From a virus, in the IMG/VR virus record IMGVR_UViG_3300002231_000003, positions 14,521 through 37,432 of that record: a stretch of 22,912 nt of DNA; one strand, given 5' to 3'. Made by a program: the position numbers and the translations under genes. The stretch's first letter is position 1; every line of letters starts with the position of its first letter. The notes below the pieces were generated by a model, which was not told the DNA's origin, did no database searches, and saw only the letters and a program-made list of their open reading frames with translations. Of the stretch, positions 3,946 to 22,912 are shown in pieces.

Positions 3946-6900
3946 TGCCCGAACAGGATCTACTCTACTGGGATGAGATCTCAAACACCCCCGAGTACCA
4001 AAAGGCCGACAAGCAGAAGCAGGGTGCGGCGAAGCGGGAGTGGGCGGGGTACATGCACACCACCATGTCCAACCGCTTTGGTGATGAGTGGGATGCAAAT
4101 GCGTTCAATCGTGAACTATTCGAGAAGGACTTCTTCGAGTTGCGCGAGGGGCTTTCTGACACGGCAGGTCGCTATGTTCATGCACTGATGAACACGACCC
4201 AAGAAGGAAACGTGCCAGCATGGGTTCGCCAGTCAAGACTCTTCCCTGAAGCCGTAATAGACATATGGCAGAACGAAGGGAAGATCGGGTTCTCCGAAGG
4301 CGTAATCAGGGGAACAGTCGAGGAAGCGAGAGGCGTGAGACTTCTGCCGTTTATGGGATCAATGATAAAATCCCTGGACAACCAATTCACGAAAGATGCA
4401 ATGGAGCGCCTCCAGGCAAATGAATACGAAGATATTGTTAATGCTAAAGCTCCACGAATTCAAACGACATTCCCGGCTGGTCCACCTATGGGGACGTTCT
4501 CGATAAGCGCGAAAGCACAGCGCGATAGGGATATGGAGATAGCCACAAACTTTTTCTCGCGCGTTGCTGAGGAGCAAATACGTGGCCGGACAACTATGGG
4601 CAGTGTTTCTGGTGGGATACTTGAATTGCCTGGGTATGCTATTGAGTTCCTTGCATCGGCTGGGATGGTGGAGGGGATTAAGGAGGGGATAACCAAGTTT
4701 GCCACGAAGAAGCTTGGTGAGGATATGATGGAGAAGAGTGGCGGTACAAGGCGAGGGGTCGGGCTGGCTGGCGTAGTTGCTGGTGCCGGGGCGCGTACTG
4801 CGACTGCGCTTGCGCCACGAGTAGCAGATGAATATTCCGAGCGCGTCATGCCGAAAGGGTTTGCGATAACAGAGGAAGGCCAAGCAATCGTGGCCGAGGG
4901 GCAGAACAAGCCGTGGACGGCACTTGGGAAGGCCATCGGCAGTGTAATGCTTTCTGCACTCGCAGAGGATTCCGGAGAGGCTCTATCACTGGGAGCCAGC
5001 AAGGCATTCCCTTCTTTGACACCAGGCGCTCAGAAGCTGGCACTGAGGGCGAAGACCTTCTTCCAGCGTGCGTCGACTCCATCAGGACGTAGCATCACCC
5101 AGATCCTAAAGCAGTCTGGATGGAACGGCGTGCTGGCAGAGTTCGGCGAGGAGCGGCTTGAAGCTATACTCCGGCCACTAGTGAACCTGGACGACAAGGG
5201 CGGTACTACGATAGACCGTATCATGCGTTCGTGGACTGCTGCCACAGATGCCCGTCAGATGCTGGTTGAGGGTTTGGTTGTTTCCGCGGTTCCGATTGGC
5301 CGCGCAGGGGTGGGAGCCGTCACAGGTGGACCAGTCGACATTAAGGAGCAATTGACCAATGAGCTTGCCCTGAAGAAGGTTGACGAAGAAGGCATGAGCG
5401 TTGACAAGGCGATTGAAGCTGCTGGCCAGGAAATAGATGAAGTTGTGCAGGCCGATTCAGAGATAGCTCGCATGATGCAACAGCACGGGACGGAGATTAA
5501 GCAGGAAAAGGAAGATCAGAAGAAGGCGCAGGAAGGCGATGAGTTCACTATAGAGGATGTTGGAGAACTCACTCCGAAGAATGTGCAGGAAACCTTATCG
5601 AAACTTTCTGATGATGATGTGCAACAGATCTTCGATCAGAGGAGTCTCCACCAGGAATCTCTCCGGATGGACCGCAGAGGGATGGTCGGTGAGATCGTCA
5701 AAGATGTTGTGCTGGAGTCTGGTGAAGAAGCACCGCAAGCAGGTACACCAGAGCAACAGGATGCGGCGAAGAGGCTGACGGTGCAACTCCAGCAACTGGA
5801 CCGTATGAAGGATGATGACAGCGTTACCGTTGTCGAGCCGTCAGAAGCACAGCGGAAGTTGTCTGACGATGTGAAATCTGAGTTTGGTCAAGATGTTGTA
5901 TTCATGACATCTAAGAGTGGAAACGTTGTCTTGCCGAATGGCGTGACTCGAGTTCCCGGTGCTGAGAACACCATCTTTTTGGACATCAACAGCGACCGGC
6001 CATATACAGAGGTAGGCAGTCACGAGATTGCACATCTGATCAAGAACGAACACCAAGACCTATGGGACAAGCTGACAAACTCCATTGAGAATGTTGCCGG
6101 CCGGCGCAGGATCAACCGCATGGCGAAGGACATGGCCGCGGTCGCCCAATCGAAGGGGAACAAGGACTTCGACGTTGAGGCTGGCAAGGAAGAGATTATC
6201 TCCGATCTGGCCGCGAGGTTCCTGACAGACCCCATCGAAGGAATGCGCTACATTCAGCGGTTGCCGAAGGGCATGGTCGCTACGTTCCTCGACACGGCTG
6301 ACGGCGTTAGCCGAGCACTCCGGGGTAAGGTGTCAAAGACATCAGAGGACTTCGACGCGCTTCTCGCTGCGCGCGATGTGATTGATGATGCATACGAACA
6401 GTTTGGATTGCGCCGTGGTGAGTCACTTGACGTTGACCAAGAATCGGAGCAAACCGTGCCAGTTGCAGAACCAGCAGAATTGGCACCGGCGCCGCGCGTG
6501 GCGCAGCAGGATGACCTCGCCCAAGTCACGCAGAATGATGTAGAGTTGTTGCGAGCAGAAGAGCGGCTGGCCCAGGAACAAGAGCAAGCCGTTGCCGAGC
6601 CGTGGGGAAGTGTCGAGAACAGGCGAAGGGCCGACAAAGCTCTGCGCAAGTTCGAGAGGATGAACACGACTATAGATGCATTGGAAGATCCGAACTTCCG
6701 CGCGAAGAACGAGGCGCTCCTCCAAGAGATCAACGAAGCCCTGGACAACAAGAACGCCGGACGATTGGTAGAGAAGCTGAACGTGATGACGAAGAAGGTG
6801 CGCAGTTGGAAGAGCAAGCAACCGAAGTTCAGCGACAAGGAAGAGGCACCGCGGCAGACGCTGGGAGAGATGTTCGATCAAGATATCCCGATTCAGGAGA

Positions 6901-9782
6901 TAGAGGACAGAGTACGCAATAGGATCCGTTTCTCCGACAAGGTCGAAGAGCCAGTTCGCCAACCTGGAGAGGTAGCTATCCCCGTCGATGCCGATCCTGA
7001 GGTGCGCGCCGAGGCCCGTCGTCAGCGGATGAAAGCCCGCGAAGAAGGATTTACCAAGGTCATTCTTGCTGGTGGCCGACCGACAATCGAACAGATCGAT
7101 GACATGGAAGTCGGCCAGTTGCGGTCGATGGCCACAGTCTTGGTCGATAAGGATCCCGAGGGAGAGCGAGCGCGCCTTTCCACACAGGGTATCCGTAACG
7201 CACTTGACGCACAGATCTACCGTGAGGCGTTCGAGGGGAACTACGACTTGATGCAACGTGATACCGGACGGCTGGCTGAAGATGAGAAGATCATGTCTGA
7301 GTACGATCGGTATATGAGATCTACCTCGCGTGCGCTTGTGATGGGCAGGGATCCCCGAGAGCCGAACGATCCGCGACGAAGCAACCGGGAACTGTACGAA
7401 CGGATCTACGGTCTTCCCGCGAAGGAACGCAGCAAGATGGACAAATTGCGCGAGAAGAAGACGCAGGACGCGGGGAAGAAACGGGAGAAAATTCTCCAAC
7501 GTCAGCAGGAGCGGATCAACTTCATCATCAACGAGGTTCAGCGGCTGACCAACAAAACGAACATCGAGGACATGAACGCGATCGACCGGGCGCGGATCCA
7601 CCGCCTGATTCAGTACCGTGACGGAACGATACGGGATGCCATCCGGGAGTACCGCGTTGCCGCACTGCTCTCGTTCCCAGCAACACCGGCAGTAAACACT
7701 GGTGCGACTGGTGCATATGTAGCGTACAACATCTTCATACGCAGGTTCCTGACGGCTGCTGTCAATAGCGCGGCGAAGAAGGTTGGCGTTGGAGACCCAA
7801 CTGCGCCAACGTTGTCCGAGATTCCCATCCTTGTCGACGCAATGCTATGGGGAAGCGAGGCTAATGACATGAAGACGGGAGTAACCAGGGTAGCGCCGCA
7901 ACTAGACGAGGCATTCAAGAACGCATTAAAGGCCGGTTGGTACGGCATCAGCTTCTATAATGAAGCTATGGGGACATCAGCAGAGAAGTTTGATCTAGGG
8001 AATGCAGGTATAGAGGCCGGTATTGGGAAGATAACCCGCCCCATTGCTGCTGGCGCGAAAAAGCTTGGTGTTGACCTTGGGAGTGCTCCGTATCAGTTCG
8101 CTCGCTATCTTGGCGGGACCGTTCGCATTCCAATCTCATGGGGCGCACTGGCATCAGATGACATGTTCAAGACGATCATGCACCGCGGCGAGGCCGCGGC
8201 CCTGGCACATCGTTATGCCGTAGGGCATGGACTCAAGCCGGGGACAGAAGATTATGCCAACGCAGTAAGCAATGCAGTTCTTGACCCGAACTCCGTTGTC
8301 AACCAGCAGGCCATACGGTCTGCCTTAGATGTAACGTTTCAGACAGAACTTGGCGGGATTGGCAAACTCGCTCTACAGGCGAGACAACTGCCGGCTGGAT
8401 TAGGTTTCATTTGGGAGATGTTCGTTCCGTTCGTCACCACTCCCGGCAACCTACTGAAGAAAGGTGCGCTAGAAGGTACTCCTATTGGAGTATTAAGGAC
8501 TGGGTTGAAGGCAGCAAATACTGCTTTCGCTAAAGTGTCTCCCGAAAGCAATGGATGGGTATACGAGGAGCGAGATGGTGGGAAGGCCATGCAGGATGCC
8601 GTAGATGCCGGGATAGTCATTGCAACAACATTTGCACTATCGTCCATGCTTGACACTGGAGATGAAGACGAACCTGAACGTCCATGGATCACTGGCGCAC
8701 CAGAGGGATTGCGAGGATCTCCGCAACGTGCCCAGCAGACTAGAGTCGCCCCAGCAATGAGTATCAACCCGCATCTCCTGTTTAAGAGAATGGGATTCGA
8801 CACAGCGCAGGGATTGTTCCCAGACGAATACATTTCATACGACCGCCTTGACCCATTTGCCACTGGCATCGCATCGATGGTAGACTCAAACCGAACGATA
8901 AGGGACATCTGGCATCGAGGTCAGGACGCTACTGAAGCCGTAGCTGAAATGATACTGAAGCAGGTTCGTGCATTGGAGAATAAGACCTACCTGCCGATGG
9001 TCAGCGATTTGTACCGGGCGATCACTGGTGGGAGTGAGGGACTTCTTATCTCCATCGGTAGCACGTTCGCTGCGTCTTGGGTTCCGGCCATCTATCGTGG
9101 ATCGGCGACCAACTTCCGCGATACGATCCCAGACTATTACACCGCGTCGACCGACGGGATTATGTCGCGCATTGCCCAGGTATCTTATGAGAAGGCCGGG
9201 TTCGACACGCCAGGTGAGCGCATCGGACTTAACGGAAAACCAATAGTGAAGGAAACGCGCGATTCAATGGTGGCAAACTTCATTGAGCGTATAGCAGGTC
9301 CATACCGCGTTCTCGCCAGCCGGGACAAGCGCGATCTGTTCACCGACACGATGGATATGATCTGGCGCTGGAACGACCGCATACCAGCCCGCCGGCAACG
9401 TGGCATCGAGGAGAACGACGAACGAGCGCAGATTTACGTGCCGACCAACGTGGACACCAACTATCGTGTGAAGTGGGGCAACGAGGACGAACCACCGTCC
9501 TTTCGAAAGTTTGCCCTGACCAGAGAGCAGAAGACAGAGTTCGAGAAAGTGCGTGGCGCAACTCTTGAACGCGCACTGGAAGACCTTGACAAAATACGTC
9601 CATTCAGCAAATACAACCCAGAATGGATCGACATTGTGCAGTTCAAGCACGCTATGAATGTGGCAGGGCAGTACGCACAAGAAGCTGTGATCGATCGCAT
9701 CAAACAAGAGCGCACCATGGAAGAAGCAAATAAGCGTGCTGAAAGAAGCTACCAAGAAAAGATAAATCAGAATTTCGACTGA
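3945..9782 (+). CDS. Giant ejected/polyvalent virion protein with HEIAH metallopeptidase motif
   Basis: This encodes 1945 residues. The start overlaps the previous stop (TAATG). Visible landmarks are Gly/Ala-rich hydrophobic stretches around residues 210-300 and 440-465, then a zincin motif at residues 693-697 (HEIAH). A second acidic element EEIISD at 749-754 fits a third metal ligand in gluzincin-type peptidases. Residues about 830-1050 form a charged coiled-coil-rich linker carrying two FSDK motifs (F962 and F996). The C-terminal part has hydrophobic segments near 1235, 1482 and 1555, including FVPFVTTPGNLLKKG, a pattern I associate with large phage polyvalent proteins. Position and size match T7 gp16 (1318 residues), but I see no transglycosylase motif. 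It is inferred to be ejected with the DNA and to form or traverse an envelope channel, with possible proteolytic activity or self-processing. Confidence 0.75.
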   Translation: MPEQDLLYWDEISNTPEYQKADKQKQGAAKREWAGYMHTTMSNRFGDEWDANAFNRELFEKDFFELREGLSDTAGRYVHALMNTTQEGNVPAWVRQSRLFPEAVIDIWQNEGKIGFSEGVIRGTVEEARGVRLLPFMGSMIKSLDNQFTKDAMERLQANEYEDIVNAKAPRIQTTFPAGPPMGTFSISAKAQRDRDMEIATNFFSRVAEEQIRGRTTMGSVSGGILELPGYAIEFLASAGMVEGIKEGITKFATKKLGEDMMEKSGGTRRGVGLAGVVAGAGARTATALAPRVADEYSERVMPKGFAITEEGQAIVAEGQNKPWTALGKAIGSVMLSALAEDSGEALSLGASKAFPSLTPGAQKLALRAKTFFQRASTPSGRSITQILKQSGWNGVLAEFGEERLEAILRPLVNLDDKGGTTIDRIMRSWTAATDARQMLVEGLVVSAVPIGRAGVGAVTGGPVDIKEQLTNELALKKVDEEGMSVDKAIEAAGQEIDEVVQADSEIARMMQQHGTEIKQEKEDQKKAQEGDEFTIEDVGELTPKNVQETLSKLSDDDVQQIFDQRSLHQESLRMDRRGMVGEIVKDVVLESGEEAPQAGTPEQQDAAKRLTVQLQQLDRMKDDDSVTVVEPSEAQRKLSDDVKSEFGQDVVFMTSKSGNVVLPNGVTRVPGAENTIFLDINSDRPYTEVGSHEIAHLIKNEHQDLWDKLTNSIENVAGRRRINRMAKDMAAVAQSKGNKDFDVEAGKEEIISDLAARFLTDPIEGMRYIQRLPKGMVATFLDTADGVSRALRGKVSKTSEDFDALLAARDVIDDAYEQFGLRRGESLDVDQESEQTVPVAEPAELAPAPRVAQQDDLAQVTQNDVELLRAEERLAQEQEQAVAEPWGSVENRRRADKALRKFERMNTTIDALEDPNFRAKNEALLQEINEALDNKNAGRLVEKLNVMTKKVRSWKSKQPKFSDKEEAPRQTLGEMFDQDIPIQEIEDRVRNRIRFSDKVEEPVRQPGEVAIPVDADPEVRAEARRQRMKAREEGFTKVILAGGRPTIEQIDDMEVGQLRSMATVLVDKDPEGERARLSTQGIRNALDAQIYREAFEGNYDLMQRDTGRLAEDEKIMSEYDRYMRSTSRALVMGRDPREPNDPRRSNRELYERIYGLPAKERSKMDKLREKKTQDAGKKREKILQRQQERINFIINEVQRLTNKTNIEDMNAIDRARIHRLIQYRDGTIRDAIREYRVAALLSFPATPAVNTGATGAYVAYNIFIRRFLTAAVNSAAKKVGVGDPTAPTLSEIPILVDAMLWGSEANDMKTGVTRVAPQLDEAFKNALKAGWYGISFYNEAMGTSAEKFDLGNAGIEAGIGKITRPIAAGAKKLGVDLGSAPYQFARYLGGTVRIPISWGALASDDMFKTIMHRGEAAALAHRYAVGHGLKPGTEDYANAVSNAVLDPNSVVNQQAIRSALDVTFQTELGGIGKLALQARQLPAGLGFIWEMFVPFVTTPGNLLKKGALEGTPIGVLRTGLKAANTAFAKVSPESNGWVYEERDGGKAMQDAVDAGIVIATTFALSSMLDTGDEDEPERPWITGAPEGLRGSPQRAQQTRVAPAMSINPHLLFKRMGFDTAQGLFPDEYISYDRLDPFATGIASMVDSNRTIRDIWHRGQDATEAVAEMILKQVRALENKTYLPMVSDLYRAITGGSEGLLISIGSTFAASWVPAIYRGSATNFRDTIPDYYTASTDGIMSRIAQVSYEKAGFDTPGERIGLNGKPIVKETRDSMVANFIERIAGPYRVLASRDKRDLFTDTMDMIWRWNDRIPARRQRGIEENDERAQIYVPTNVDTNYRVKWGNEDEPPSFRKFALTREQKTEFEKVRGATLERALEDLDKIRPFSKYNPEWIDIVQFKHAMNVAGQYAQEAVIDRIKQERTMEEANKRAERSYQEKINQNFD

Positions 9783-10125: not shown

Positions 10126-11100
10126 ATGCACGGCATGTTCCTTGGCGCAAACATCCATAACGCCAATATGGCGATTTCTGGTGGTGGTTTGGCAGACTCT
10201 ATTGCCGCAGAACCTACTGTGAATGCTAGTGCTGCAGTGTGGAGCTCTGTCACGCAGACGACCGCTACGATAAGCTGGACTCCAGGTGACGGGACGTATA
10301 CTCTGGTAGGGGTGTATGAAGGCGCGTCCACTCAGTTATCCCCTGTCGATGAAGTTACTTACGCAGTGGACACGGTATTCGGTGGTGGCGACGGCATAGC
10401 TGAGACATCGTCCAGTTACGGGGTATACAAATCCACCGGATCTACCGTGAACATAACAGGACTAACCGCCGGTAAGACCTACGGGGTGATGCTGGCATCG
10501 TTCAACTCTAACGGCGATGGGACCGAGAATTATATGGGGTGGACTACTCCGGTGGAGACTTCTACTCTTACCGCCGCTGTATGGCACTCATTGTTGACTT
10601 GGGACATCAGTACGCCGATCTCCGGCATCAACGTAGACTGGAGCGCCTACGCTGGGGTTTACGACTGCTTCGAGGTGCGGGTGACGAATCTTGTTCCCGG
10701 CACGGACAATAACAACCTACGCTACTATCCGATTATCTCCGGTTCCCCGGTCAGCACGAACATGGACATGCACCTTATGACGAGCAAGTCTACATCGGCG
10801 GGTTACGCGGCTTTTGCATACGATGCCAACGCTCTGTCAATCATCAGCAACTCTGCTGGGTCCGATACTGGCGAGAGCGGCTCCATGGTCCTTAGATTCT
10901 ACGAACCGGCCAATGCCTCCTATTACAAGTGCGCGAATGTCAGTGGTGCGGCTATAACTACGGCCGCAGACGTGTCGCTAGGGGAAGGCGGGTATCTATA
11001 CGAAGGCGCTGCGAGTGCAATAGATGGAGTCAGGCTCTACATGGGGTCGGGGAATATCGGATCGGCTACCGTGACACTGCTCGGAAGGAACGAGGTTTAA
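10126..11100 (+). CDS. Adsorption/tail-spike protein with FN3-like domain and C-terminal beta-sandwich
   Basis: This encodes 324 residues. AAAGGAGG lies six bases before the ATG at 10126. Residues about 32-150 look like a fibronectin type III domain: TQTTATISWTPGDGTYTLV, later NITGLTAGKTYGVMLASFNS. Residues about 155-324 form a Ser/Gly/Thr-rich beta-sandwich ending in IDGVRLYMGSGNIGSATVTLLGRNEV, a C-terminal pattern seen in many phage receptor-binding or tail proteins. The same kind of module occurs twice in the next protein. No signal peptide is seen. A role as a host-surface-binding fibre or spike component is inferred from architecture and from the position after the ejected core proteins. 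Confidence 0.65.
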   Translation: MHGMFLGANIHNANMAISGGGLADSIAAEPTVNASAAVWSSVTQTTATISWTPGDGTYTLVGVYEGASTQLSPVDEVTYAVDTVFGGGDGIAETSSSYGVYKSTGSTVNITGLTAGKTYGVMLASFNSNGDGTENYMGWTTPVETSTLTAAVWHSLLTWDISTPISGINVDWSAYAGVYDCFEVRVTNLVPGTDNNNLRYYPIISGSPVSTNMDMHLMTSKSTSAGYAAFAYDANALSIISNSAGSDTGESGSMVLRFYEPANASYYKCANVSGAAITTAADVSLGEGGYLYEGAASAIDGVRLYMGSGNIGSATVTLLGRNEV

Positions 11101-14417: not shown

Positions 14418-14705
14418 ATGGCTTGGACGAACGAGGAGAGCATACGCTTTGGAAAGCTGGAGAACAAAGTGGGCAAGAGCGGCGAGGACTTGGCGTACAT
14501 CCGAGCACGTATCGACAACATGACCCCACAGGGGACATGCGCCGAGCACGGGGCAAAGATCACGGCCAACGGAAAAGGCATTGAGGAGAACGGGCGCAAG
14601 GTCACGCGGAATCTCGCCGCCATCTCCTGTTTGGCCGTCGCCGGCGCTTTAGCAGTCATCGCGATCATTATCTACATGAAGACCGGAGAGGTACACATAC
14701 CGTAA
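14418..14705 (+). CDS. Single-TM membrane protein, candidate holin
   Basis: This encodes 95 residues, with ATG five bases after the lipoprotein stop and AAGGA/AAGG just upstream. The N-terminal part is charged and probably coiled (FGKLENKVGKSGEDLAYIRARID). One hydrophobic segment follows at about 66-87 (LAAISCLAVAGALAVIAIIIYM), then a short tail. This layout, a cytoplasmic coiled region followed by one C-terminal TM, is seen in XhlA-like phage holin-associated proteins. No endolysin is recognisable next to it, which weakens the call. The stop overlaps the next start as TAATG. Confidence 0.5.
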   Translation: MAWTNEESIRFGKLENKVGKSGEDLAYIRARIDNMTPQGTCAEHGAKITANGKGIEENGRKVTRNLAAISCLAVAGALAVIAIIIYMKTGEVHIP

Positions 14706-15804: not shown

Positions 15805-15912
15805 ATGTGGGTAGCTTACCTCATTTACAGCCTGATGGGCATGTGCTTCACTGGGCTTGTGCTCTTCACCGCCGTTTACCTCTACGATGAACAAACTAAC
15901 ACAGGAGACTGA
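15805..15912 (+). CDS. 35-residue single-TM membrane peptide
   Basis: GGAAGGAGG lies just upstream of ATG 15805, which gives a strong initiation site. The 35 residues start MWVAYLIYSLMGMCFTGLVLF, with hydrophobic residues up to about 27, then a short polar tail DEQTNTGD. It is one TM helix with no other motif. It is the first gene after the hairpin and is immediately followed by the recT-like gene, whose Shine-Dalgarno lies inside its 3' end. It may be a small membrane effector or a leader peptide coupling translation to the next gene. The function is unknown. Confidence 0.55.
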   Translation: MWVAYLIYSLMGMCFTGLVLFTAVYLYDEQTNTGD

Positions 15913-15913
15913 G

Positions 15914-16792
15914 ATGCCAGGAGAAACCACAACAGCAATCCAATGCTTTAACCCATGCGAGAGTGCCGACCGGATGTCGGCCATCGAGCGCCTGGGCGAG
16001 ATCATTGCCAAGTCAACCATGCTCGGTTGCGACAATAAAGAACAGGGCATGCTGATCGCCGCAACCTGCGCCATGGAGGGACTGACACCGTTGGACTGGA
16101 AGCGCAAGTACCACATCGTGAACGGCAACGTAGCGATGCGCAGTGACCGGATGGGGGCAGAGTTCCGTGGCCGCGGGGGGAAGTACAAGATCCTGCAACT
16201 GGACCGTGAAACCTGCGAAGTCGAGTTCACCTTTGAGAAGCAGAAGCTTTCGGTGAAGATCACGATGGACGACGCGAAGAAGGCCGGGTGGGCACTGGCG
16301 AAGAAGGGGGTACTCAAGGACAACTGGAAGCGCACCCCGGACGACATGCTCTTCGCCCGCGTCATCAGTAAAGGTGTAAGGCGCTTGTGCCCGGAAGCGG
16401 TCGCTGGTATCTATACGCCGGAAGAGGTCGCTGACTTCGTTGAGGTCCGGACGAGCGAACCGCCCGCGCCCAAAACCCCGCCGATGACGGCTGAGAAGGC
16501 GACGAAGACCATCACCGAAACCGCGCCCCCGTCCAAGGTCGAACCGGCTGAGGACATCGAGGATGCGGAGATTGTCGAAACGTCCGACGAGGAAGAAGGT
16601 CAGGCCGGGATCGACATCCTTCTCTGCCCGGTAGTCGGCAAGGCATTCGGCAAGCCGTGGGGAGAGTTCAGCACCGACGCGCTTCACGCAATCCTGACCA
16701 GCACTCAGGATCGTGTGACCAAGGCCATGACCAACGACCACCGCAACGAGGTCAAGTCCGAGATCGCTCGGCGGGAGGTGGCAGGTGAGTAA
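15914..16792 (+). CDS. recT: RecT-family single-strand annealing protein
   Basis: This encodes 292 residues from ATG 15914, chosen because AGGAG lies six bases upstream; upstream in-frame starts overlap the membrane peptide. The core at about residues 15-190 follows the RecT pattern: a helical start (ERLGEIIAKSTMLG), MLIAATCAMEGLTPLDW, KYHIVNGNVAMRSDRMGAEFRGRGG, a beta region, W-K-R-TPDDMLFARVISKGVR, and CPEAVAGIYTPEEVADF. The C-terminal third has an acidic/Pro linker and a small helical domain (GKPWGEFSTDALHAIL). RecT proteins anneal complementary single strands during phage recombination. The SSB-like and nuclease genes nearby fit that role. No RecE or lambda Exo-type exonuclease is seen here. 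Confidence 0.8.
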   Translation: MPGETTTAIQCFNPCESADRMSAIERLGEIIAKSTMLGCDNKEQGMLIAATCAMEGLTPLDWKRKYHIVNGNVAMRSDRMGAEFRGRGGKYKILQLDRETCEVEFTFEKQKLSVKITMDDAKKAGWALAKKGVLKDNWKRTPDDMLFARVISKGVRRLCPEAVAGIYTPEEVADFVEVRTSEPPAPKTPPMTAEKATKTITETAPPSKVEPAEDIEDAEIVETSDEEEGQAGIDILLCPVVGKAFGKPWGEFSTDALHAILTSTQDRVTKAMTNDHRNEVKSEIARREVAGE

Positions 16793-17433: not shown

Positions 17434-17733
17434 ATGGCAAAGAGAAACATGAAACCAGTTATCGTGTGCTGCGGTACAAACGGCCGAGCCGTTATCTTTG
17501 GATGGTCTGAGGACGAGCCTGTTGCTGGGCAACCGGTAAAGATGAATGATGCTCGCATGGTTCTGTACTGGAGCGCAGAGTGTGGCGGGTTGCTCGGCTT
17601 GGCAGCGAACGGGCCAAAACCAGGCACCAAGATGACCGCTGTTGTGGAATGCCATGGCGACGAATGTGTACGCCAATGGGTTTCCGTCAGTAAGTTGGCA
17701 GCGAAGGAGATGGACGAATGGAAAGCGTGCTGA
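17434..17733 (+). CDS. DUF6948-like small phage protein
   Basis: This encodes 99 residues. GAGGGAG lies upstream of ATG 17434. The order KPVIVCCGTNGRAVIFGWSE, then VKMNDARMVLYWSAECGG, then LLGLAANGPKPGTKMTAVVE, then W near the end resembles the small phage family annotated DUF6948. That family has a beta-rich start, an AR..(Y)W motif, and a G-x-x-G-LA-x-xGP motif. Function is unknown. Its last 16 bases overlap the start of the Gly-Tyr repeat gene, so the two are probably translationally coupled. Confidence 0.55.
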   Translation: MAKRNMKPVIVCCGTNGRAVIFGWSEDEPVAGQPVKMNDARMVLYWSAECGGLLGLAANGPKPGTKMTAVVECHGDECVRQWVSVSKLAAKEMDEWKAC

Positions 17734-18065
17734 AAAGCTCTGGCTCTGGCTATGGCTATGGCTATGGCTATGGCTATGGCGATGGCTATGGCGATGGCTA
17801 TGGCTATGGCTATGGCTATGGCTATGGCTATGGCGATGGCGATGGCTCTGGCTATGGCTATGGCTATGGCTATGGCAAAAAAATCGCAGAGATTGCCGGC
17901 TACGCCGTCAATCTCATTAAGTCTTTTGGAGTTCTGGTTGTTGGGTGCCAAGCGCATACAATCGAACGCTGGAAGAAGATATGGGAAACGGTTGCGCGAG
18001 AAAACGGAAGGTCAGTAACCGCAGTCCAAGTAGAATCAATATTGGAACTTTGTGGAGATAAATAA
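17718..18065 (+). CDS. Gly-Tyr repeat protein encoded by a hexanucleotide array
   Basis: This encodes 115 residues. AAGGAG is nine bases before ATG 17718. After MESVLKS, residues 8-53 are 23 dipeptides of Tyr-Gly, Asp-Gly or Ser-Gly. The C-terminal domain follows (KKIAEIAGYAVNLIKSFGVL, VVGCQAHTIERWKKIWETVA, VESILELCGDK), a compact alpha/beta-looking region with VGCxxHTIExW. Low-complexity G(Y/D/S) N-termini fused to small domains occur in several phage accessory proteins. The repeat is probably a flexible, aromatic and possibly self-associating tail. The stop precedes the SSB-like gene by three bases. Function is not known. Confidence 0.65.
   Translation: MESVLKSSGSGYGYGYGYGYGDGYGDGYGYGYGYGYGYGDGDGSGYGYGYGYGKKIAEIAGYAVNLIKSFGVLVVGCQAHTIERWKKIWETVARENGRSVTAVQVESILELCGDK
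17739..17876 (+). repeat. Hexanucleotide tandem repeat, 23 units of (TAT/GAT/TCT)GGC
   Basis: There are twenty-three back-to-back hexamers: 16 TATGGC, 4 GATGGC and 3 TCTGGC. The unit keeps the frame, so copy-number change would alter tail length without breaking the protein. The GGC codon is invariant, consistent with slippage expansion. The array also keeps other frames and the opposite strand open, which creates spurious ORFs. Confidence 0.95.
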
Positions 18066-18068
18066 GAC

Positions 18069-18530
18069 ATGGCATTCATCCAACGCGAAGAGAAGAACAT
18101 CCCCGTCACCATCGAAGAGGTGTGGCCGTCGTCCGGCAAGAACGACTCGGTCATCATCTGCTTGAAGCTGGCCGACAACCAGGGTGACACCATCACCGAG
18201 TACAAGCACATGAACGAGACCATCATAAAGGGTGGCCAGAACCGCGGCAAGACGAATTGCGAGGTAAACGTCGAACTGCTCAAGTCCCTCGGCTGGAACT
18301 CGGCCCCCGACTGCACCAAGCTCGGCGAACTGAACGGTCAGGAATGCTCGATCACGACCGAGATCGAAGACGGTAAGTGCCGGGTGAAGTGGCTGAACCC
18401 CAAGCAGCAGCGGCTGGGCGAGGACGAGGCCAACCGGCGACTGTCGGCGATCCTCGGCGGGACGCCACCTCCCCCGGCCCCGCGCAAGGTGGATGATGAC
18501 ACCGATGATATGGGAGAAATTCCCTTTTGA
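18069..18530 (+). CDS. SSB-like single-stranded DNA-binding protein
   Basis: This encodes 153 residues, starting three bases after the previous stop. The N-terminal part (NIPVTIEEVWPSSGKNDSVI, ICLKLADNQGDTITEYKHMN) looks like an OB-fold/DUF669-type phage protein. A second block includes LKSLGWNSAP and LNGQECSITTEIEDGKCRVKW. The C-terminus is Pro-rich then acidic and ends DDDTDDMGEIPF, very like the DDDIPF tip by which bacterial SSBs recruit partners. Location between recT and the nuclease genes fits a single-strand-binding role in recombination or replication. Fold and binding are inferred; the tip is seen directly. Confidence 0.65.
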   Translation: MAFIQREEKNIPVTIEEVWPSSGKNDSVIICLKLADNQGDTITEYKHMNETIIKGGQNRGKTNCEVNVELLKSLGWNSAPDCTKLGELNGQECSITTEIEDGKCRVKWLNPKQQRLGEDEANRRLSAILGGTPPPPAPRKVDDDTDDMGEIPF

Positions 18531-18592
18531 AACGGGATATCTCCTTGACATTCCGTTCTAACTCATCATCTTGTGATAAAGGAGGTGCCTTT
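18531..18592 (+). promoter_or_regulatory. Spacer with perfect -35-like box and strong RBS before the HNH gene
   Basis: A consensus TTGACA is at 18545-18550. The nearest -10-like sequence, TGTGAT (18572-18577), is 21 bp away, so promoter function is doubtful. AAAGGAGG at 18578-18585, seven bases before ATG 18593, is a strong Shine-Dalgarno and decides that start. Most neighbouring gene junctions in this operon overlap or are a few bases long, so this spacer stands out. Confidence 0.35.
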
Positions 18593-19051
18593 ATGCAAAA
18601 AATATGCAAGAGGTGTCAAAGGAACTTGGATATATCTGAGTTCTACAAGCACAAGATGATGGGCGATGGCCACCTTAGCTTCTGCAAGGAATGCACAAAG
18701 AAGCGAGTAAAGAAGCACAGGGAAAACAACCTTGAACGGATACAGGAGTACGACCGTTCTCGCGGGATGAACACCGAAAGGGTTGCGGCCAGGGAAGAGT
18801 ACAGAAAAACGGAATCAGGCAAGCAGGCTTTTGCAAGAGCACGTAGAAAATACAGGACCAAATACCCTGACCGCAATGCGGCAAGGGGGTTTGTTTACAG
18901 AGCGATCCGCAGTGGAAAGATCACAAAGCCGGATTGCTGTTCTGAATGTGGTGCAACTGGAAGGATCCACGGTCACCACGAGGACTACACCAAGCCTCTT
19001 GATGTAGTTTGGCTCTGCCCGGCCTGCCACACAAGGAGACACCGTGGATAA
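18593..19051 (+). CDS. HNH-type (homing-like) endonuclease with zinc ribbon
   Basis: This encodes 152 residues from ATG 18593, set by AAAGGAGG upstream. The N-terminal zinc-ribbon-like part has CKRC then FCKECTKKRVKKHREN, a common start in phage HNH-type proteins. A long basic middle region follows (REEYRKTESGKQAFARARRK). The C-terminus has CSECG, GRIHGHHEDYTKPLDVVWLC and PACHTRRH. Paired CxxC motifs with HH and a terminal H are characteristic of HNH endonucleases with a structural zinc. It probably nicks or cuts DNA and may be mobile. It sits between the SSB-like and ERCC4 genes, and its codons look more AT-rich than its neighbours, supporting later insertion. Its 3' end carries the Shine-Dalgarno of the next gene. 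Confidence 0.75.
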   Translation: MQKICKRCQRNLDISEFYKHKMMGDGHLSFCKECTKKRVKKHRENNLERIQEYDRSRGMNTERVAAREEYRKTESGKQAFARARRKYRTKYPDRNAARGFVYRAIRSGKITKPDCCSECGATGRIHGHHEDYTKPLDVVWLCPACHTRRHRG

Positions 19052-19478
19052 ACTCCACATCATCATCGACACGAGGGAACAGCGCCCGTGGTCATTCCTG
19101 CCACACCTGGCCGACTGCGAGCGCGGAACCCTCCAAACCGGCGACTACGCGCTCCATGGTGACGGTGACAACTTCGCCATCGAGCGCAAGTCGCTTAACG
19201 ACTTCGTCAGCACCATCGGCGCCGACTGGGACCGCTTCCAGCGAGAGATCAACCGGATGCGGGGCTGGCCGGCGCAGGTGGTGATTGTCGAGGCCAACCT
19301 GATCGACATCGTGGACGAGCGATACAACGGGACCATGCAACCCAGCTTCATCTGCAAGCGGATTGCGCAGCTGGCCATGCAGGGCGTGTGCGTGCTGTTC
19401 TGTGGCGACGTTGAATGCGCGGCCGGGATGGCATACAAGGTGCTCAAGGAACGAGCGAAACAGAAGGGACTACAGTGA
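19044..19478 (+). CDS. ERCC4/XPF-type structure-specific nuclease
   Basis: This encodes 144 residues from GTG 19044, with AAGGAG about six bases upstream, overlapping the HNH stop. Catalytic elements of the ERCC4 nuclease fold are visible: IIIDTREQRPW (residues 6-16), TGDYAL (32-37), and IERKSLNDF (46-54), the ERKxxxD signature. A beta strand follows (AQVVIVEAN), with helical C-terminal parts. The protein consists of little more than the nuclease domain. In XPF/Mus81 enzymes this domain is joined to helix-hairpin-helix repeats; here an HhH-like protein is encoded by the next gene. It likely cleaves branched or flap DNA in recombination or replication. Metal and substrate preferences cannot be told. 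Confidence 0.85.
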   Translation: MDKLHIIIDTREQRPWSFLPHLADCERGTLQTGDYALHGDGDNFAIERKSLNDFVSTIGADWDRFQREINRMRGWPAQVVIVEANLIDIVDERYNGTMQPSFICKRIAQLAMQGVCVLFCGDVECAAGMAYKVLKERAKQKGLQ

Positions 19479-20336
19479 ATGGAGAAGCTTAGAGTCAAGG
19501 TCAAGCGCGTCCTGTGGCCGAAGACCCCGCAGGAGAACAACGCCTGGAAGCTGTTGCTGACTGACATGGGCAAGGCGGCTGGAAAGGTTGCGTGGGAGAT
19601 CAACCCCGGAGACGAGTTGTGGCTAAACGGCGACTGGGAGTTTCGCAACTGCGAGCGCCAGTTCTCGTTCACCACGGCGCAGGCTTACATCCCGGCCAAC
19701 CCGATGGCGAAGCTGGACCTGGCCGCGGAGCAGACCAAGGGAATCGGCCCGTCGCTGACCAATCGGATCAAGTCCATGTACGGCGACGAGTGGGAAGGCT
19801 GTCTCCACGTAGGTACGGTCCCCGGCCTGTCGCAGAAGCTTTGGGACGCGCTACAGGACACTCTCCGGCGCATGGCGCAGTCGGGTGCAGCCAGCGAGGC
19901 AATTGCGTGGCTGATGGGACTCGGTTGCACGATAAACATGGCGCAGAAGGCATGGGCGCTGTGGGAGATGGACACAATGGGGAAGGTGAACGCGAACTGC
20001 TACGTGCTCGCGGGGTTGCCGAACTACGGGTTCTGCCACATTGACAAGGCCATCCGGCGCAACTTTGGGATCGAGGACAATGACCCGCGTCGGATCCGGG
20101 CCGCGCTTGAGTACTCGATCAAGCAACTGACCGCCGGCGGTAGCGACTGCGCAGAGTGGTCGGAGATCGTCGGGCGTGCGATCAGCGAGACCGGGGGAGT
20201 CACGCGCGATCTTATCATTCAATACTCCGAGTCTATGTTCGAGGCGGGCACGTTGGTCGTTGTCCCTGAGACCTCGCTCGTCGCGTTGGGGGTGGACTAC
20301 AAAAACAGTGAGGAAATTGCATCATGGATCGACTGA
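19479..20336 (+). CDS. RecD2 N-terminal-like protein lacking the helicase domain
   Basis: This encodes 285 residues, with its ATG overlapping the nuclease stop region. Residues 1-70 look like the OB-type start of RecD2-like proteins (GKVAWEINPGDELWLNGDWE, RNCERQFSFTTAQAYIP). A helix-hairpin-helix motif TKGIGPSLTNRI is at 86-97 and a second HhH-like region at about 143-165. Then N..CYVLAGLPNYGFCHIDKA (171-191), DPRRIRAALEYSI (202-214) and SEEIASWI at the end follow, in the order of the RecD2 segment just before its Walker A helicase core. No Walker motif is present. It probably binds branched or single-stranded DNA, perhaps targeting the adjacent ERCC4 nuclease. The similarity is by pattern and should be regarded as strong but untested. 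Confidence 0.7.
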   Translation: MEKLRVKVKRVLWPKTPQENNAWKLLLTDMGKAAGKVAWEINPGDELWLNGDWEFRNCERQFSFTTAQAYIPANPMAKLDLAAEQTKGIGPSLTNRIKSMYGDEWEGCLHVGTVPGLSQKLWDALQDTLRRMAQSGAASEAIAWLMGLGCTINMAQKAWALWEMDTMGKVNANCYVLAGLPNYGFCHIDKAIRRNFGIEDNDPRRIRAALEYSIKQLTAGGSDCAEWSEIVGRAISETGGVTRDLIIQYSESMFEAGTLVVVPETSLVALGVDYKNSEEIASWID

Positions 20337-20512
20337 ATGAAAAGCTTACCGAGGCCACGAGACGAATGCGCAGATTGCAGAAGAACTACTTCCGGCAACG
20401 GGATCCCGAGACACTGAAGAGCGCGATGCGCGCCGAGCGCGAGGTCGATCTACTGCTGGAGAACATCGGACAGCCGGATCTGTTTGCGGTGGAGGGCCGG
20501 TACAATGACTGA
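20324..20512 (+). CDS. Small charged helical phage protein
   Basis: This encodes 62 residues, with ATG 20324 overlapping the end of the RecD2-N-like gene by 13 bases. It is almost entirely helical and charged (EATRRMRRLQKNYFRQRDPE; MRAEREVDLLLENI) and ends EGRYND. Small phage proteins with an EREVDxLLxE-type helix are common in early regions; the function is unknown. The last codons and stop belong to a 22-bp sequence repeated at 22057-22078, where a different protein also ends in EGRYND. Confidence 0.6.
   Translation: MDRLNEKLTEATRRMRRLQKNYFRQRDPETLKSAMRAEREVDLLLENIGQPDLFAVEGRYND
20491..20512 (+). repeat. 22-bp gene-junction repeat, copy 1
   Basis: Identical to 22057-22078. It encodes the end EGRYND-stop of one gene, GGAGGG as ribosome binding site, and ATGACTGA, where the next gene starts inside the previous stop. 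Confidence 0.9.
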
Positions 20513-20816
20513 GCAGGAACGAGGACAAGCACATTTGGCCAGTGGTTTCAGATCTGCTGATATTCGAAGGCGCAACGATTTTATGGCAGGTGCAGAATGG
20601 GGCTACGCCGCCGCCATGCCGAAATGGATTCCGGTGGGGGAGAGGTTGCCGGAAGTGGGCGTGACAGTGCAGATTGTTCACGGGCGTTCGGTAACATGGG
20701 CGTGGTATGCTGGATCTTACTGGCGCAACCACTCATACAAGATAATGGATTCGGTAACGCATTGGGCACCATTCATGCCCTTGCCCAAACCGCCAGAGAA
20801 GGAGGTATCGAAATGA
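20505..20816 (+). CDS. DUF551-domain protein, copy 1
   Basis: This encodes 103 residues from ATG 20505, inside ATGACTGA at the end of the previous gene, with GGAGGG upstream. After an N-terminal helix (MTEQERGQAHLASGF) and GYAAAMPKW, it has the DUF551 pattern: WIPVGERLPEVGVTVQIVHG, two Trp-rich strands (VTWAWYAGSYW) and SVTHWAPFMPLPKPPEKE. DUF551 proteins are widespread in tailed phages and prophages and have no established function. The C-terminal PPEKE is encoded by the 16-bp element that also supplies the next gene's Shine-Dalgarno. The gene is a paralogue of the one at 22071. Confidence 0.8.
   Translation: MTEQERGQAHLASGFRSADIRRRNDFMAGAEWGYAAAMPKWIPVGERLPEVGVTVQIVHGRSVTWAWYAGSYWRNHSYKIMDSVTHWAPFMPLPKPPEKEVSK
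20790..20805 (+). repeat. Coding/Shine-Dalgarno repeat CCGCCAGAGAAGGAGG, copy 1
   Basis: It encodes PPEKE in the DUF551 gene and provides AAGGAGG seven bases before ATG 20813. Exact copies are at 22413 and 22635, with a one-mismatch copy at 21053. Confidence 0.9.
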
Positions 20817-21076
20817 ATTGGCTACGGGAGGCGATGCGACAGTACCTGGACCGCAACGGGTACGACGGCCTCTGGTGCGACGGGGTGCCGTGCGGTTGCC
20901 TCAATGATGACCTGATTGCCTGTGGTGGTGCGCCGTGTTCCGACTCCATACACGACTGTTGCGAACCTGGATACCGACGCGAGTACAGGGCAGACGACGA
21001 ATGCGGGTGTGACTGTCAGGGCATGGATCACTGGCACGTTGGGCCAGATAAGCCGCAAGAGAAGGAGGGGGAGTGA
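20813..21076 (+). CDS. Cys-rich small phage protein
   Basis: This encodes 87 residues from ATG 20813, overlapping the DUF551 stop as ATGA and preceded by AAGGAGG. It begins MNWLREAMRQYLDRNGYDGL and continues WCDGVPCGCLNDDLIACGG with ten cysteines overall. This resembles a common phage family with the order yLxxnGYDGL..C.C...DL..C...C.PG. Metal binding, probably zinc, is likely from the Cys spacing. The function is unknown. The C-terminus PQEKEGE is encoded by a one-mismatch copy of the 16-bp coding/Shine-Dalgarno repeat, and its stop overlaps the next start. Confidence 0.65.
   Translation: MNWLREAMRQYLDRNGYDGLWCDGVPCGCLNDDLIACGGAPCSDSIHDCCEPGYRREYRADDECGCDCQGMDHWHVGPDKPQEKEGE
21053..21068 (+). 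repeat. Coding/Shine-Dalgarno repeat, copy 2 (one mismatch)
   Basis: It reads CCGCAAGAGAAGGAGG, encoding PQEKE at the end of the Cys-rich protein and providing the ribosome binding site for the next gene. Confidence 0.85.
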
Positions 21077-21336
21077 GTATGGGGAGCAGAGCAGACAGAC
21101 GCATAGCGACACGGCGCAAGGTCAACGAGATGAAAGCTCGGTTTTTCGATGCGTGGTCCAATGTGCAAGACCCCGTGACGAAAGAGAAGATCGCAAACGC
21201 AGGAGAAAGGATGTATCTCAAGCTACGGAGAGAGAACCCGGCGCAGGATGCCCACTTGGTCAGACAAGCCATGAACGAATCTGCTGCCGATCTCATAGCG
21301 TTGTGTAACAACCCAAAGGAGTCCCCCGATGCCTGA
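21073..21336 (+). CDS. Small basic helical protein of unknown function
   Basis: This encodes 87 residues if it starts at GTG 21073, which overlaps the previous stop as GTGA; ATG 21079 is an alternative with longer spacing from AGGAGG. It begins Arg-rich (GSRADRRIATRRKVNEMKAR) and continues as amphipathic helices (DPVTKEKIANAGERMYLKLR; HLVRQAMNESAADLIALCNN). There is no Cys-rich, TM or signal feature. I do not recognise a family. Its 3' end overlaps the start of a short CPFCG-containing frame at 21329, in keeping with the overlapping style of this array. Confidence 0.55.
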   Translation: MSMGSRADRRIATRRKVNEMKARFFDAWSNVQDPVTKEKIANAGERMYLKLRRENPAQDAHLVRQAMNESAADLIALCNNPKESPDA

Positions 21337-21377
21337 CAAACTGAAAGCGTGCCCGTTCTGCGGCGCGGAATATCTAA

Positions 21378-21394
21378 CAATGAGATAGCGCGAA
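21378..21394 (+). repeat. 17-bp repeat containing the in-frame TAG, copy 1
   Basis: CAATGAGATAGCGCGAA occurs here and at 21716-21732. In the second copy it is read in another frame, as NEIAR inside a zinc-ribbon protein; here the frame of the Lar-like gene reads ATG AGA TAG. Confidence 0.9.
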
Positions 21395-21583
21395 ATGTAT
21401 AAGGACCGTACACTGTTTAGTTGCCAGTACTGTGGGAAGGATATCGCAGCGGACGGGCTGGATGATATGCCTAAGCTACGTTGGGCGGAGCGTAATGGGA
21501 TGCCCGATACGGCATCTGTAGAATGGCGATGCCCATCCTGCCAAAACTGGGTCAGCGAAGAGGAAGAATACTGTGACAGATAA
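21395..21583 (+). CDS. Small two-CxxC zinc-ribbon protein
   Basis: This encodes 62 residues from ATG 21395 with only a weak upstream GAGA. It carries CQYCGKDIAADG near the start and CPSCQNWVSEEEEYC near the end, so one zinc site with four cysteines is likely. It is in frame with the CPFCG fragment upstream, so it may be the downstream half of a Lar-like gene rather than an independent one. The end contains the GAGGAA that could serve the next GTG start. No function can be assigned. Confidence 0.5.
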   Translation: MYKDRTLFSCQYCGKDIAADGLDDMPKLRWAERNGMPDTASVEWRCPSCQNWVSEEEEYCDR

Positions 21584-21755
21584 ACGACTCAATCAGGAGA
21601 CGAAATGCTGCCGGTGCGGCAAGACCAGTGCGGGTTATGTGCCGGAAATCGTAGACGGCTGCGGTAACGTGAGTTATGAGTGTTGGGATTGCCGAGACAA
21701 GCATAATGTGTCCAGCAATGAGATAGCGCGAATAGAGGAGGCAGACCGTGACTGA
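21573..21755 (+). CDS. Small Cys-rich zinc-ribbon protein
   Basis: This encodes 60 residues from GTG 21573, overlapping the previous stop by 11 bases, with GAGGAA about nine bases upstream. It has CCRCGKTSAGYVPEIVDGCG and then CWDCRDKHN, two CxxC knuckles typical of a small phage zinc ribbon. The C-terminus SSNEIARIEEADRD is helical and acidic and includes the 17-bp repeat shared with 21378-21394. Its last codons hold AGGAGG for the next GTG. Function is unknown. Confidence 0.55.
   Translation: MTDKRLNQETKCCRCGKTSAGYVPEIVDGCGNVSYECWDCRDKHNVSSNEIARIEEADRD
21716..21732 (+). repeat. 17-bp repeat, copy 2
   Basis: Exact copy of 21378-21394, coding for NEIAR in the zinc-ribbon protein. It is probably the intact, ancestral context because it lies within a continuous reading frame. 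Confidence 0.9.
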
Positions 21756-22078
21756 GCGAGAAGGACACTACATGAGCAAGCATACACCGGGACCGTGGGA
21801 AGTTGGACCCAATGGGCCTTTACATCTTCGGTCCAAACCATGAGATGATCGCCGATCAGCCCTTGGATTGCGAGGAGTCTCCGGGGGCTATCGTCCGGGC
21901 GAGGGGCGGCGGCGGTCGCTTGCCGACTCGGGCCAACATGCACCTCATTTCCGCAGCGCCCGAACTGTTTCGCTACCTCAAAGAGGCGCGTATTGCGTTG
22001 CGGCAAGACATCAACGTGAGCCTGTGCGCCGACATAGACAGGACAATCGCTAAAGCGGAGGGCCGGTACAATGACTGA
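21748..22078 (+). CDS. HTPGPW-family phage protein, frame broken near the start
   Basis: GTG 21748 has AGGAGG six bases upstream and gives MTEREGHYMSKHTPGPWEVG. An in-frame ATG at 21772 with AGAAGGA is an alternative. The frame then stops at 21843, while the next frame reads LYIFGPNHEMIADQP, then ANMHLISAAPELFRYLKEAR, to EGRYND at 22078. Removing one G from GGG at 21814-21816 joins them into about 109 residues. This matches the widespread phage family with HTPGPW at the N-terminus and AN..LI.AAPEL in the C-terminal half. Function is unknown. It ends in the duplicated 22-bp junction. Confidence 0.6.
22057..22078 (+). repeat. 22-bp gene-junction repeat, copy 2
   Basis: Identical to 20491-20512, again joining a protein ending EGRYND to a DUF551 gene starting within ATGACTGA. 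Confidence 0.9.
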
Positions 22079-22658
22079 TCAGCAACGCAAGCAGGTAGAG
22101 GAGGCACTAGATAGGTTTCCGACTCGCGACGACAAGACGGTGGATGATTACCGCTACCTCGTTGGACGGTCAGGTTACACATTTAACGAGTACGAGGAGG
22201 AACTGGCAACGGGGTTTGCTTTGGGCTACGCCGCCGCCATGCCGCGCTGGATTCCGGTGGCTGAGAGGTTGCCGGAGGAAGGCCAGCTTATCGTCGTGTT
22301 CGATGGCAAGTTTTACGAAGTCGGCAACAGGTTCGGCAGGCTGTTTCTCGGTGCCGAATCTGGTGTTTTCACAGAGGACTACATCAAGTGGATGCCGTTG
22401 CCCTTGCCCGCGCCGCCAGAGAAGGAGGGGGAAGACCCACTTACCCGTCTGTGTGTTGAAACCACGAAGCGTAACATGCGGATTAATGGCGGGATGAGCG
22501 CCCCCAGCGACGACGGCGGGGGAGGGGAGGTCAAGTGGTGCGTTCATCAAGGCGATGAGTTGGAGACGTTCTGTAATCTTGGCGGGGCAAGCGTCAATAA
22601 AGCGTTCTGTGACGAGTGCGAGAAGAAACAACCACCGCCAGAGAAGGAGGGAGAGTGA
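22071..22658 (+). CDS. DUF551-domain protein, copy 2, fused to a Cys-containing C-terminal module
   Basis: This encodes 195 residues from ATG 22071, with GGAGGG upstream inside the junction repeat. Residues about 50-125 carry the DUF551 pattern: GYAAAMPRWIPVAERLPEEG, then VVFDGKFYEVGNRFGRLF, then YIKWMPLPLPAPPEKEGE. Where copy 1 reaches its end shortly after PPEKE, this one continues DPLTRLCVETTKRNMRINGG into VKWCVHQGDELETFCNLGGA, CDECEKKQPPPEKEGE. The second module ends with the same PPEKEGE, so this looks like a fusion of two formerly separate genes. The Cys pairs (C..C, CDEC) suggest a zinc-binding tail. The function is unknown. Confidence 0.7.
   Translation: MTDQQRKQVEEALDRFPTRDDKTVDDYRYLVGRSGYTFNEYEEELATGFALGYAAAMPRWIPVAERLPEEGQLIVVFDGKFYEVGNRFGRLFLGAESGVFTEDYIKWMPLPLPAPPEKEGEDPLTRLCVETTKRNMRINGGMSAPSDDGGGGEVKWCVHQGDELETFCNLGGASVNKAFCDECEKKQPPPEKEGE
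22413..22428 (+). repeat. Coding/Shine-Dalgarno repeat, copy 3 (internal, no gene start follows)
   Basis: CCGCCAGAGAAGGAGG here encodes PPEKE in the middle of the 195-residue protein. The stop and start codons that follow in the other copies are absent. Confidence 0.9.
22635..22650 (+). repeat. Coding/Shine-Dalgarno repeat, copy 4
   Basis: Exact copy encoding PPEKE at the end of the 195-residue protein and giving AAGGAGG upstream of ATG 22658. Confidence 0.9.
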
Positions 22659-22762
22659 TGGAACTTTGTTGGGTATCAAGACAACAAGACGCGGCAGAAG
22701 CATACAACGCCAAGGCTAAGGAGGTGCATGGTGAGTTCGCACGACTCAACAAGATTGCTTAA
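22658..22762 (+). CDS. 34-residue phage peptide (YNAKAKEVHGEFARLN type)
   Basis: ATG 22658 overlaps the previous stop as TGATG and has AAGGAGG upstream. The 34 residues MELCWVSRQQDAAEAYNAKA followed by KEVHGEFARLNKIA form one amphipathic helix. Very short phage proteins with QQDAA..YNAKAKE.HGEFA.LN are a recognisable recurrent type in early regions. The function is unknown. The next gene begins inside it, using its AAGGAGG as ribosome binding site. Confidence 0.6.
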   Translation: MELCWVSRQQDAAEAYNAKAKEVHGEFARLNKIA

Positions 22763-22912
22763 TTGCCCGTTCTGCGGAGAAAGCAATATGCAGGAGGTAG
22801 ATGTAGACGGCCTGTTCATATCGGAGACGAGAAACGGTTGGTCTGTTGGTTGTCGATCATGCGAGACGTTTCGCAGCTGGTATATAACGCGGCAGGACGC
22901 AGTACGCTCATG
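22731..22912 (+). CDS. Lar-like zinc-ribbon protein, 3' end outside window
   Basis: AAGGAGG at 22718-22724 is six bases from GTG 22731 and only three from ATG 22728, favouring the GTG. The visible part reads DSTRLLNCPFCGESNM, then WSVGCRSCETFRSWYITRQD. CPFCG plus a second CxxC fits the Lar restriction-alleviation-like zinc-ribbon family common in phages. The frame is open to the window end. It is a second Lar-like gene besides the interrupted one at 21329, so it may be the intact paralogue. The 5' end overlaps the 34-residue peptide gene. Confidence 0.6.
   Translation, partial: MSSHDSTRLLNCPFCGESNMQEVDVDGLFISETRNGWSVGCRSCETFRSWYITRQDAVRS

Follow-up and report, generated by a model that had tools for sequence, protein, structure and literature searches.

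The window analysed here is a stretch of 22,912 nucleotides that covers positions 14521–37432 of a 45,090-base IMG/VR phage contig (record IMGVR_UViG_3300002231_000003). It is framed by single ambiguous bases (N), starting right after the one at contig position 14520 and stopping right before the one at 37433; single Ns are also present at 38529 and 40322. P22-type portal and capsid genes are found on the contig upstream of the window, and the structural region inside it contains a very large ORF (positions 3945–9782) encoding 1945 amino acids, which is probably a virion protein. The genes that concern us are the following (window numbering unless stated otherwise):

15857–16792, plus strand: RecT-family annealing protein, the start of the recombination block (PF03837, 25.8 bits, cut-off 24; phrog_561, E 1.3e-26)
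18069–18530, plus strand: SSB-like protein with an acidic tail, DDDTDDMGEIPF (no family match; weak similarity in L080)
18527–19051, plus strand: HNH/endonuclease-VII-like gene, overlapping the start of the ERCC4 gene (phrog_2340, E 8e-45)
19044–19478, plus strand: ERCC4-type nuclease, 144 aa, GTG start (PF02732, 48.2 bits, cut-off 24; PHROG 'ERCC4-type nuclease', E 2.6e-16)
19479–20336, plus strand: RecD2 N-terminal chain, 285 aa (PF14490 HHH_RecD2, 54.7 bits, cut-off 27)
20324–20512: small ORF at the start of the spacer, PHROG-15937-like protein
20337–22912, plus strand: the part of the spacer between the two RecD2 genes that falls inside the window, with small ORFs, several of them DUF551-like and zinc-ribbon-like
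contig ~37937–39092 (23417–24572 in continued window numbering), plus strand, outside the window: RecD2 motor gene (PHROG 4412, 3e1s, Pfam)
contig 39089–41422: primase gene, directly after the motor gene

The HNH/endonuclease-VII-like gene is not seen within the conserved block of the related contigs described below, and is likely a free-standing mobile (possibly homing) endonuclease that does not belong to this block.

The ERCC4 and 285-residue genes abut, with the TGA of one followed by the ATG of the other at 19476–19481, and the RecT-family and SSB-like genes are located upstream, an arrangement that the initial annotation described correctly. The same annotation took the first of the two genes for a nearly bare ERCC4 nuclease, and the family matches bear this out: the GDYAL...AIERKSLND motif is complete, and the chain, which according to Pfam ends with the nuclease domain, contains neither an HhH nor a helicase domain. 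Judged from its sequence, the protein is an ERCC4-domain nuclease and not an XPF. It shares with XPF, MUS81 and Hef the nuclease domain with the GDxnERKx3D signature but lacks the C-terminal (HhH)2 that is part of the same chain in XPF and MUS81, and the adjoining helicase is an SF1B enzyme of the RecD2 type, whereas that of Hef is of the SF2 type. The signature is intact in 17 of the 19 related contigs, the window's included, and AD replaces GD in the remaining two (L073 and L081).

The 285-residue protein consists of an OB fold (residues 1–72, as identified by structure comparison), HhH-like helices (approximately 75–147), the HHH_RecD2 domain (138–221), a winged-helix-like region (225–272) and a C-terminal helix (271–284), and has no Walker motif. 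It matches Deinococcus RecD2 in a PDB sequence search (3e1s, E 3.3e-7) and positions 130–298 of PHROG 4412. In the AlphaFold model (mean pLDDT 89.6), residues 136–285 align with residues 154–313 of RecD2 3gp8 with a Z score of 14.7, and among the Foldseek matches the HhH protein RuvA ranks below RecD2. Thus, the proposal that this protein is a RecD2 N-terminal module, running through the OB, HhH and pre-helicase regions and free of a helicase domain, stands, including the structural match to the RecD2 N-terminus that was named as a check. PF14490 was matched in all 15 members scanned. A scan of viral contigs with the single sequence gave no matches, so that alignments were needed; the 15-member alignment of these N-terminal chains (hereafter N chains) offered no stretch conserved enough for scanning, and a four-member alignment retrieved known members only, each of which also has the motor gene.

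Within the N chain, the GFxxVD motif holds a phenylalanine, F185, that is invariant in all 15 aligned sequences. In one RecD2 protein from Bacillales, the corresponding phenylalanine of GFxxVD precedes the Walker A lysine by 160 residues, which is the distance separating F208 from K368 in B. anthracis RecD2; by this spacing, F185 would correspond to F208. The F208A variant of B. anthracis RecD2 is impaired in vivo, with a sensitivity to mitomycin C equal to that of the catalytic mutant, and the N-terminal region of about 280 residues, which is described as uncharacterised, is proposed to hold a second DNA strand and to bring about strand switching (PMC12143592).

Where, then, is the motor? It was missed initially because it is located outside the window, 3.08 kb downstream of the 285-residue gene and in the same orientation. 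The product of this gene matches positions 356–739 of the 743 positions of PHROG 4412 (E 1.9e-66), which complement those matched by the N chain, as well as 3e1s (E 6.2e-36). It contains the SF1B motor motifs (AAA_30, 94 bits; UvrD_C_2, 58 bits) and, in the expected position, a putative RecD-type SH3 domain (PF18335) that scores 31.8–35.2 bits, under the cut-off of 41. HHH_RecD2 and the RecD-type SH3 are each matched only once in the 45-kb record. The gene starts with a GTG behind an AGGAGG, immediately before the Q motif (VNYSDEQRTAIHDA). A G run in its Walker A codons (contig 38023–38026; about 1024–1027 in L007) contains a frameshift that may reflect a sequencing error, a real mutation or recoding, and because of it the motor copy on this contig may be broken or misassembled; in the motor genes of the relatives, the Walker A codons are intact. 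Rfam detects no intron in the window or in the downstream stretch, and the spacer within the window contains no gene recognised as an endonuclease. A split intein was rejected on inspection of the end of the N chain and the start of the motor chain, which show no extra sequence. An assignment to a defence system was rejected as well: PADLOC matches the motor chain to RecD/UvrD-type helicase models only, and the other two proteins match nothing.

After further scans, the shared block was found in 19 contigs including that of the window, all of them metagenomic or uncurated. RecD2 is divided between two genes in 11 of these and encoded by one gene in 8; the divided genes overlap by up to 11 nt or stand as much as 3.08 kb apart:

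Two genes separated by a gap: window, 3.08 kb; L010, 2.7 kb; L078, 1.73 kb; L081, ~0.7 kb; L080, ~0.2 kb; L069, 0.16 kb; L011, 13 nt
Two genes overlapping: L073, about -1 nt; L066 and L072, -4 nt; L062/L065, -11 nt
One gene (fused): L009, L058, L079, L060, L067, L070, L071, L075

The fused genes occupy the same place, between ERCC4 and the primase, as exemplified by L009, which was reached via the ERCC4 protein and in which RecT, ERCC4, a full-length RecD2 of 695 residues and the primase follow each other in the same order. The boundary of the split is constant, given that the N chain terminates behind a conserved helix with the consensus ...E..IW.FI, and that the motor chain opens a few residues ahead of the Q motif (with starts such as MNLDPSQ, MGIKLDESQQ, MQLNDDQ, VNYSDEQ, MNFDASQQ and MELDPTQ), often behind an AGGAGG/GGAGG-like, that is, ribosome-binding-like, site. 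The split point falls on a low-confidence linker (residues 301–313) in the model for L060, a fused protein that as a whole chain matches 3gp8 with E 2.6e-32. The split is found with intact ORFs in 10 contigs other than the window's, among which the proteins have diverged to roughly 30–50% identity, and none of the related contigs has the N-terminal module without a motor. This persistence, together with the intact ORFs and the ribosome-binding-like sites, makes the split look functional. Mapped onto a joint tree of the two parts, the split and fused states require three changes, and as the deepest branches of the clade lack resolution, one fission and two re-fusions are as economical as three fissions. 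Separate N and C ORFs, mostly close together, are present also in nine more distant phage loci (L087, L092, L094, L098, L112, L117, L119, L121, L134), as called from stop-to-stop ORFs by automatic profile matching, without curation of the individual loci; splitting here is therefore recurrent, or old, in phages.

Considering the motor gene on the same contig, the recurrent split in the relatives and the distant loci, the 285-residue protein most plausibly represents the N-terminal chain of a two-gene RecD2-type SF1B helicase, an interpretation that we regard as quite probable. Since the N-terminal region and the motor reside in two polypeptides, we refer to a split variant of RecD2 rather than to a standard member. 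As in the RecD2 proteins of Deinococcus radiodurans (3gp8/3e1s) and Bacillus subtilis, the same OB/HhH N-terminal region with HHH_RecD2 is combined with an SF1B motor in which the putative RecD-type SH3 and UvrD_C_2 come in the same order, but the phage version differs from the standard one in being encoded by two genes, cut before the Q motif, and in its location in a recombination block beside ERCC4. Subunits of a single enzyme are not usually encoded 3 kb apart, and this gap counts against the two-chain interpretation. A comparable arrangement is known from the ribonucleotide reductase NrdA of Aeromonas phage Aeh1 and the DNA polymerase 43A/43B of phage 25, in which a replication enzyme that is normally a single chain is encoded by two genes with other DNA between them, and the split halves work together (PMC2988022). 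In these precedents, homing endonucleases or an intercistronic insert accompany the split, which in NrdA of Aeh1 falls in a functionally critical region (PMC2988022). The phage RecD2, by contrast, is cut at a domain boundary, and the window's spacer has no recognised endonuclease.

In mechanistic terms, the two RecD2 chains would reassemble into one helicase without a covalent link, such that the motor chain would translocate in the 5'->3' direction and the OB/HhH chain would meanwhile hold on to single-stranded DNA or to the other arm of a fork; the N chain would thus contribute an additional point of contact with DNA, in line with the proposal for the N-terminal region of RecD2 (PMC12143592). 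The split RecD2 would work within the phage replication-recombination block, alongside RecT, the SSB-like protein, ERCC4 and the primase, where, as the conserved gene order suggests, it would most likely open forks or recombination intermediates for cutting by ERCC4. The broader implication is that phages cut RecD2 exactly between the N-terminal region and the motor and keep both as separate proteins. The split being natural, the role of the N chain becomes directly testable by adding or withholding it in a helicase assay, with no need for artificial truncation.

The gene order itself is conserved: each of the 19 contigs carries an ERCC4 gene upstream of RecD2 and on the same strand, the two abutting or overlapping in 12, so that the expected conservation of the two genes as neighbours is confirmed. 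Some of the relatives were found through ERCC4; most members came from a scan with just the motor domain as query, and hence the presence of ERCC4 in 19 of 19 is not a product of the search. In L010, L072 and L073, the N chain is 1.1–3.3 kb away from ERCC4, and in the latter two it touches the motor gene. Outside this group, ERCC4 is located just upstream of RecD2 in 5 of the 30 cellular loci with a fused RecD2 (L162, L166, L169, L176 and L207, of which L169 and L176 are near copies) and is absent from all 50 cellular loci of the 'motor only' kind; it is also found beside or near RecD2 in the phage loci L083 and L100. In the bacterial loci read, which come from unrelated bacteria, the block comprises an AAA_24 ATPase, DUF669, ERCC4, fused RecD2 and a DnaG-type primase, with the families confirmed in L166 and L207 only, and the near copies suggest that it is a mobile element. 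Such conservation of order speaks for the nuclease and RecD2 being functionally linked, which is not in itself a demonstration of a complex, and the recurrence of the ERCC4-RecD2-primase order suggests that nuclease and helicase act as partners in phages and in mobile elements of bacteria. A search of papers available without subscription found none on a split RecD2 or on the ERCC4-RecD2 pair.

So could the nuclease be a third subunit? From the gene arrangements, a physical complex of ERCC4 with RecD2 is possible, and the two-chain interpretation could be extended to a Hef-like or RecBCD-like machine of three chains in which the N chain bridges ERCC4 and the motor. Such a machine would, like RecBCD, be a helicase-nuclease of several chains with a RecD-type motor, but neither RecB nor RecC is recognised here and the nuclease is of the ERCC4 type. 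The constant upstream position of ERCC4 and its recurrence beside RecD2 in the bacterial and phage loci just listed speak for this extension, and RecD offers a parallel in that its shorter N-terminal domain binds RecC (PMC12143592). Against it, the argument is one of gene order, no fusion of ERCC4 with RecD2 was seen, the spacing reaches 3.3 kb in some contigs, and in 44 phage loci whose ERCC4 is more distant, the stretch read had no RecD2. On balance, we view the three-chain machine as a tentative option that is rather less likely than its absence. The still bolder scenario, in which a three-protein helicase-nuclease of this kind, linked by the N chain, comes with an ERCC4-RecD2-primase set that has been disseminated among phages and mobile elements of bacteria, has to be held more tentatively yet.

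Alternatively, an insertion might have interrupted RecD2 and left the 285-residue ORF as a dying fragment. The Walker A frameshift in the motor gene of this contig and the unrelated small genes in the 3-kb spacer fit such decay, but the identical split with intact ORFs in 10 diverged contigs, the retention of key residues and the motor gene's own start with a ribosome-binding-like site render it improbable.

Slightly more improbable, in our opinion, is the possibility that the N-terminal module of RecD2 was recruited to bind DNA on behalf of ERCC4 and functions without a helicase, which comes close to the original idea of a two-subunit, XPF-like nuclease with a subunit borrowed from RecD2. HhH domains are the usual DNA-binding partner in nucleases of the XPF family, the two genes abut in the window, and every member has ERCC4. 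This reading is largely refuted by the presence of the motor half on the window's contig and in every relative found; moreover, the N chain is distant from ERCC4 in three relatives, in two of which it adjoins the motor gene instead, and RecD2 is fused at the same place in 8 relatives, with an intact, full-length RecD2 directly after ERCC4 in L009, L060 and L058, an outcome that the initial annotation had itself named as speaking against its proposal.

Finally, a chimeric assembly of the spacer or of the order of the halves, for which the single Ns in the contig might be invoked, is highly improbable given that the order of RecT, ERCC4, RecD2 N chain, motor and primase is repeated in L010 and L078, with gaps of 2.7 and 1.7 kb.

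Two minor features of these genomes are worth recording. In L010, a LAGLIDADG-like ORF (10498–11067; no Pfam match) directly follows ERCC4, and a DNA-methyltransferase-like ORF sits between the two RecD2 genes. In the window, upstream of the SSB-like gene, an array of 23 copies of the hexanucleotide GCTATG (17737–17876) is translated as a Gly-Tyr repeat by an ORF for a 115-aa protein (17718–18065).
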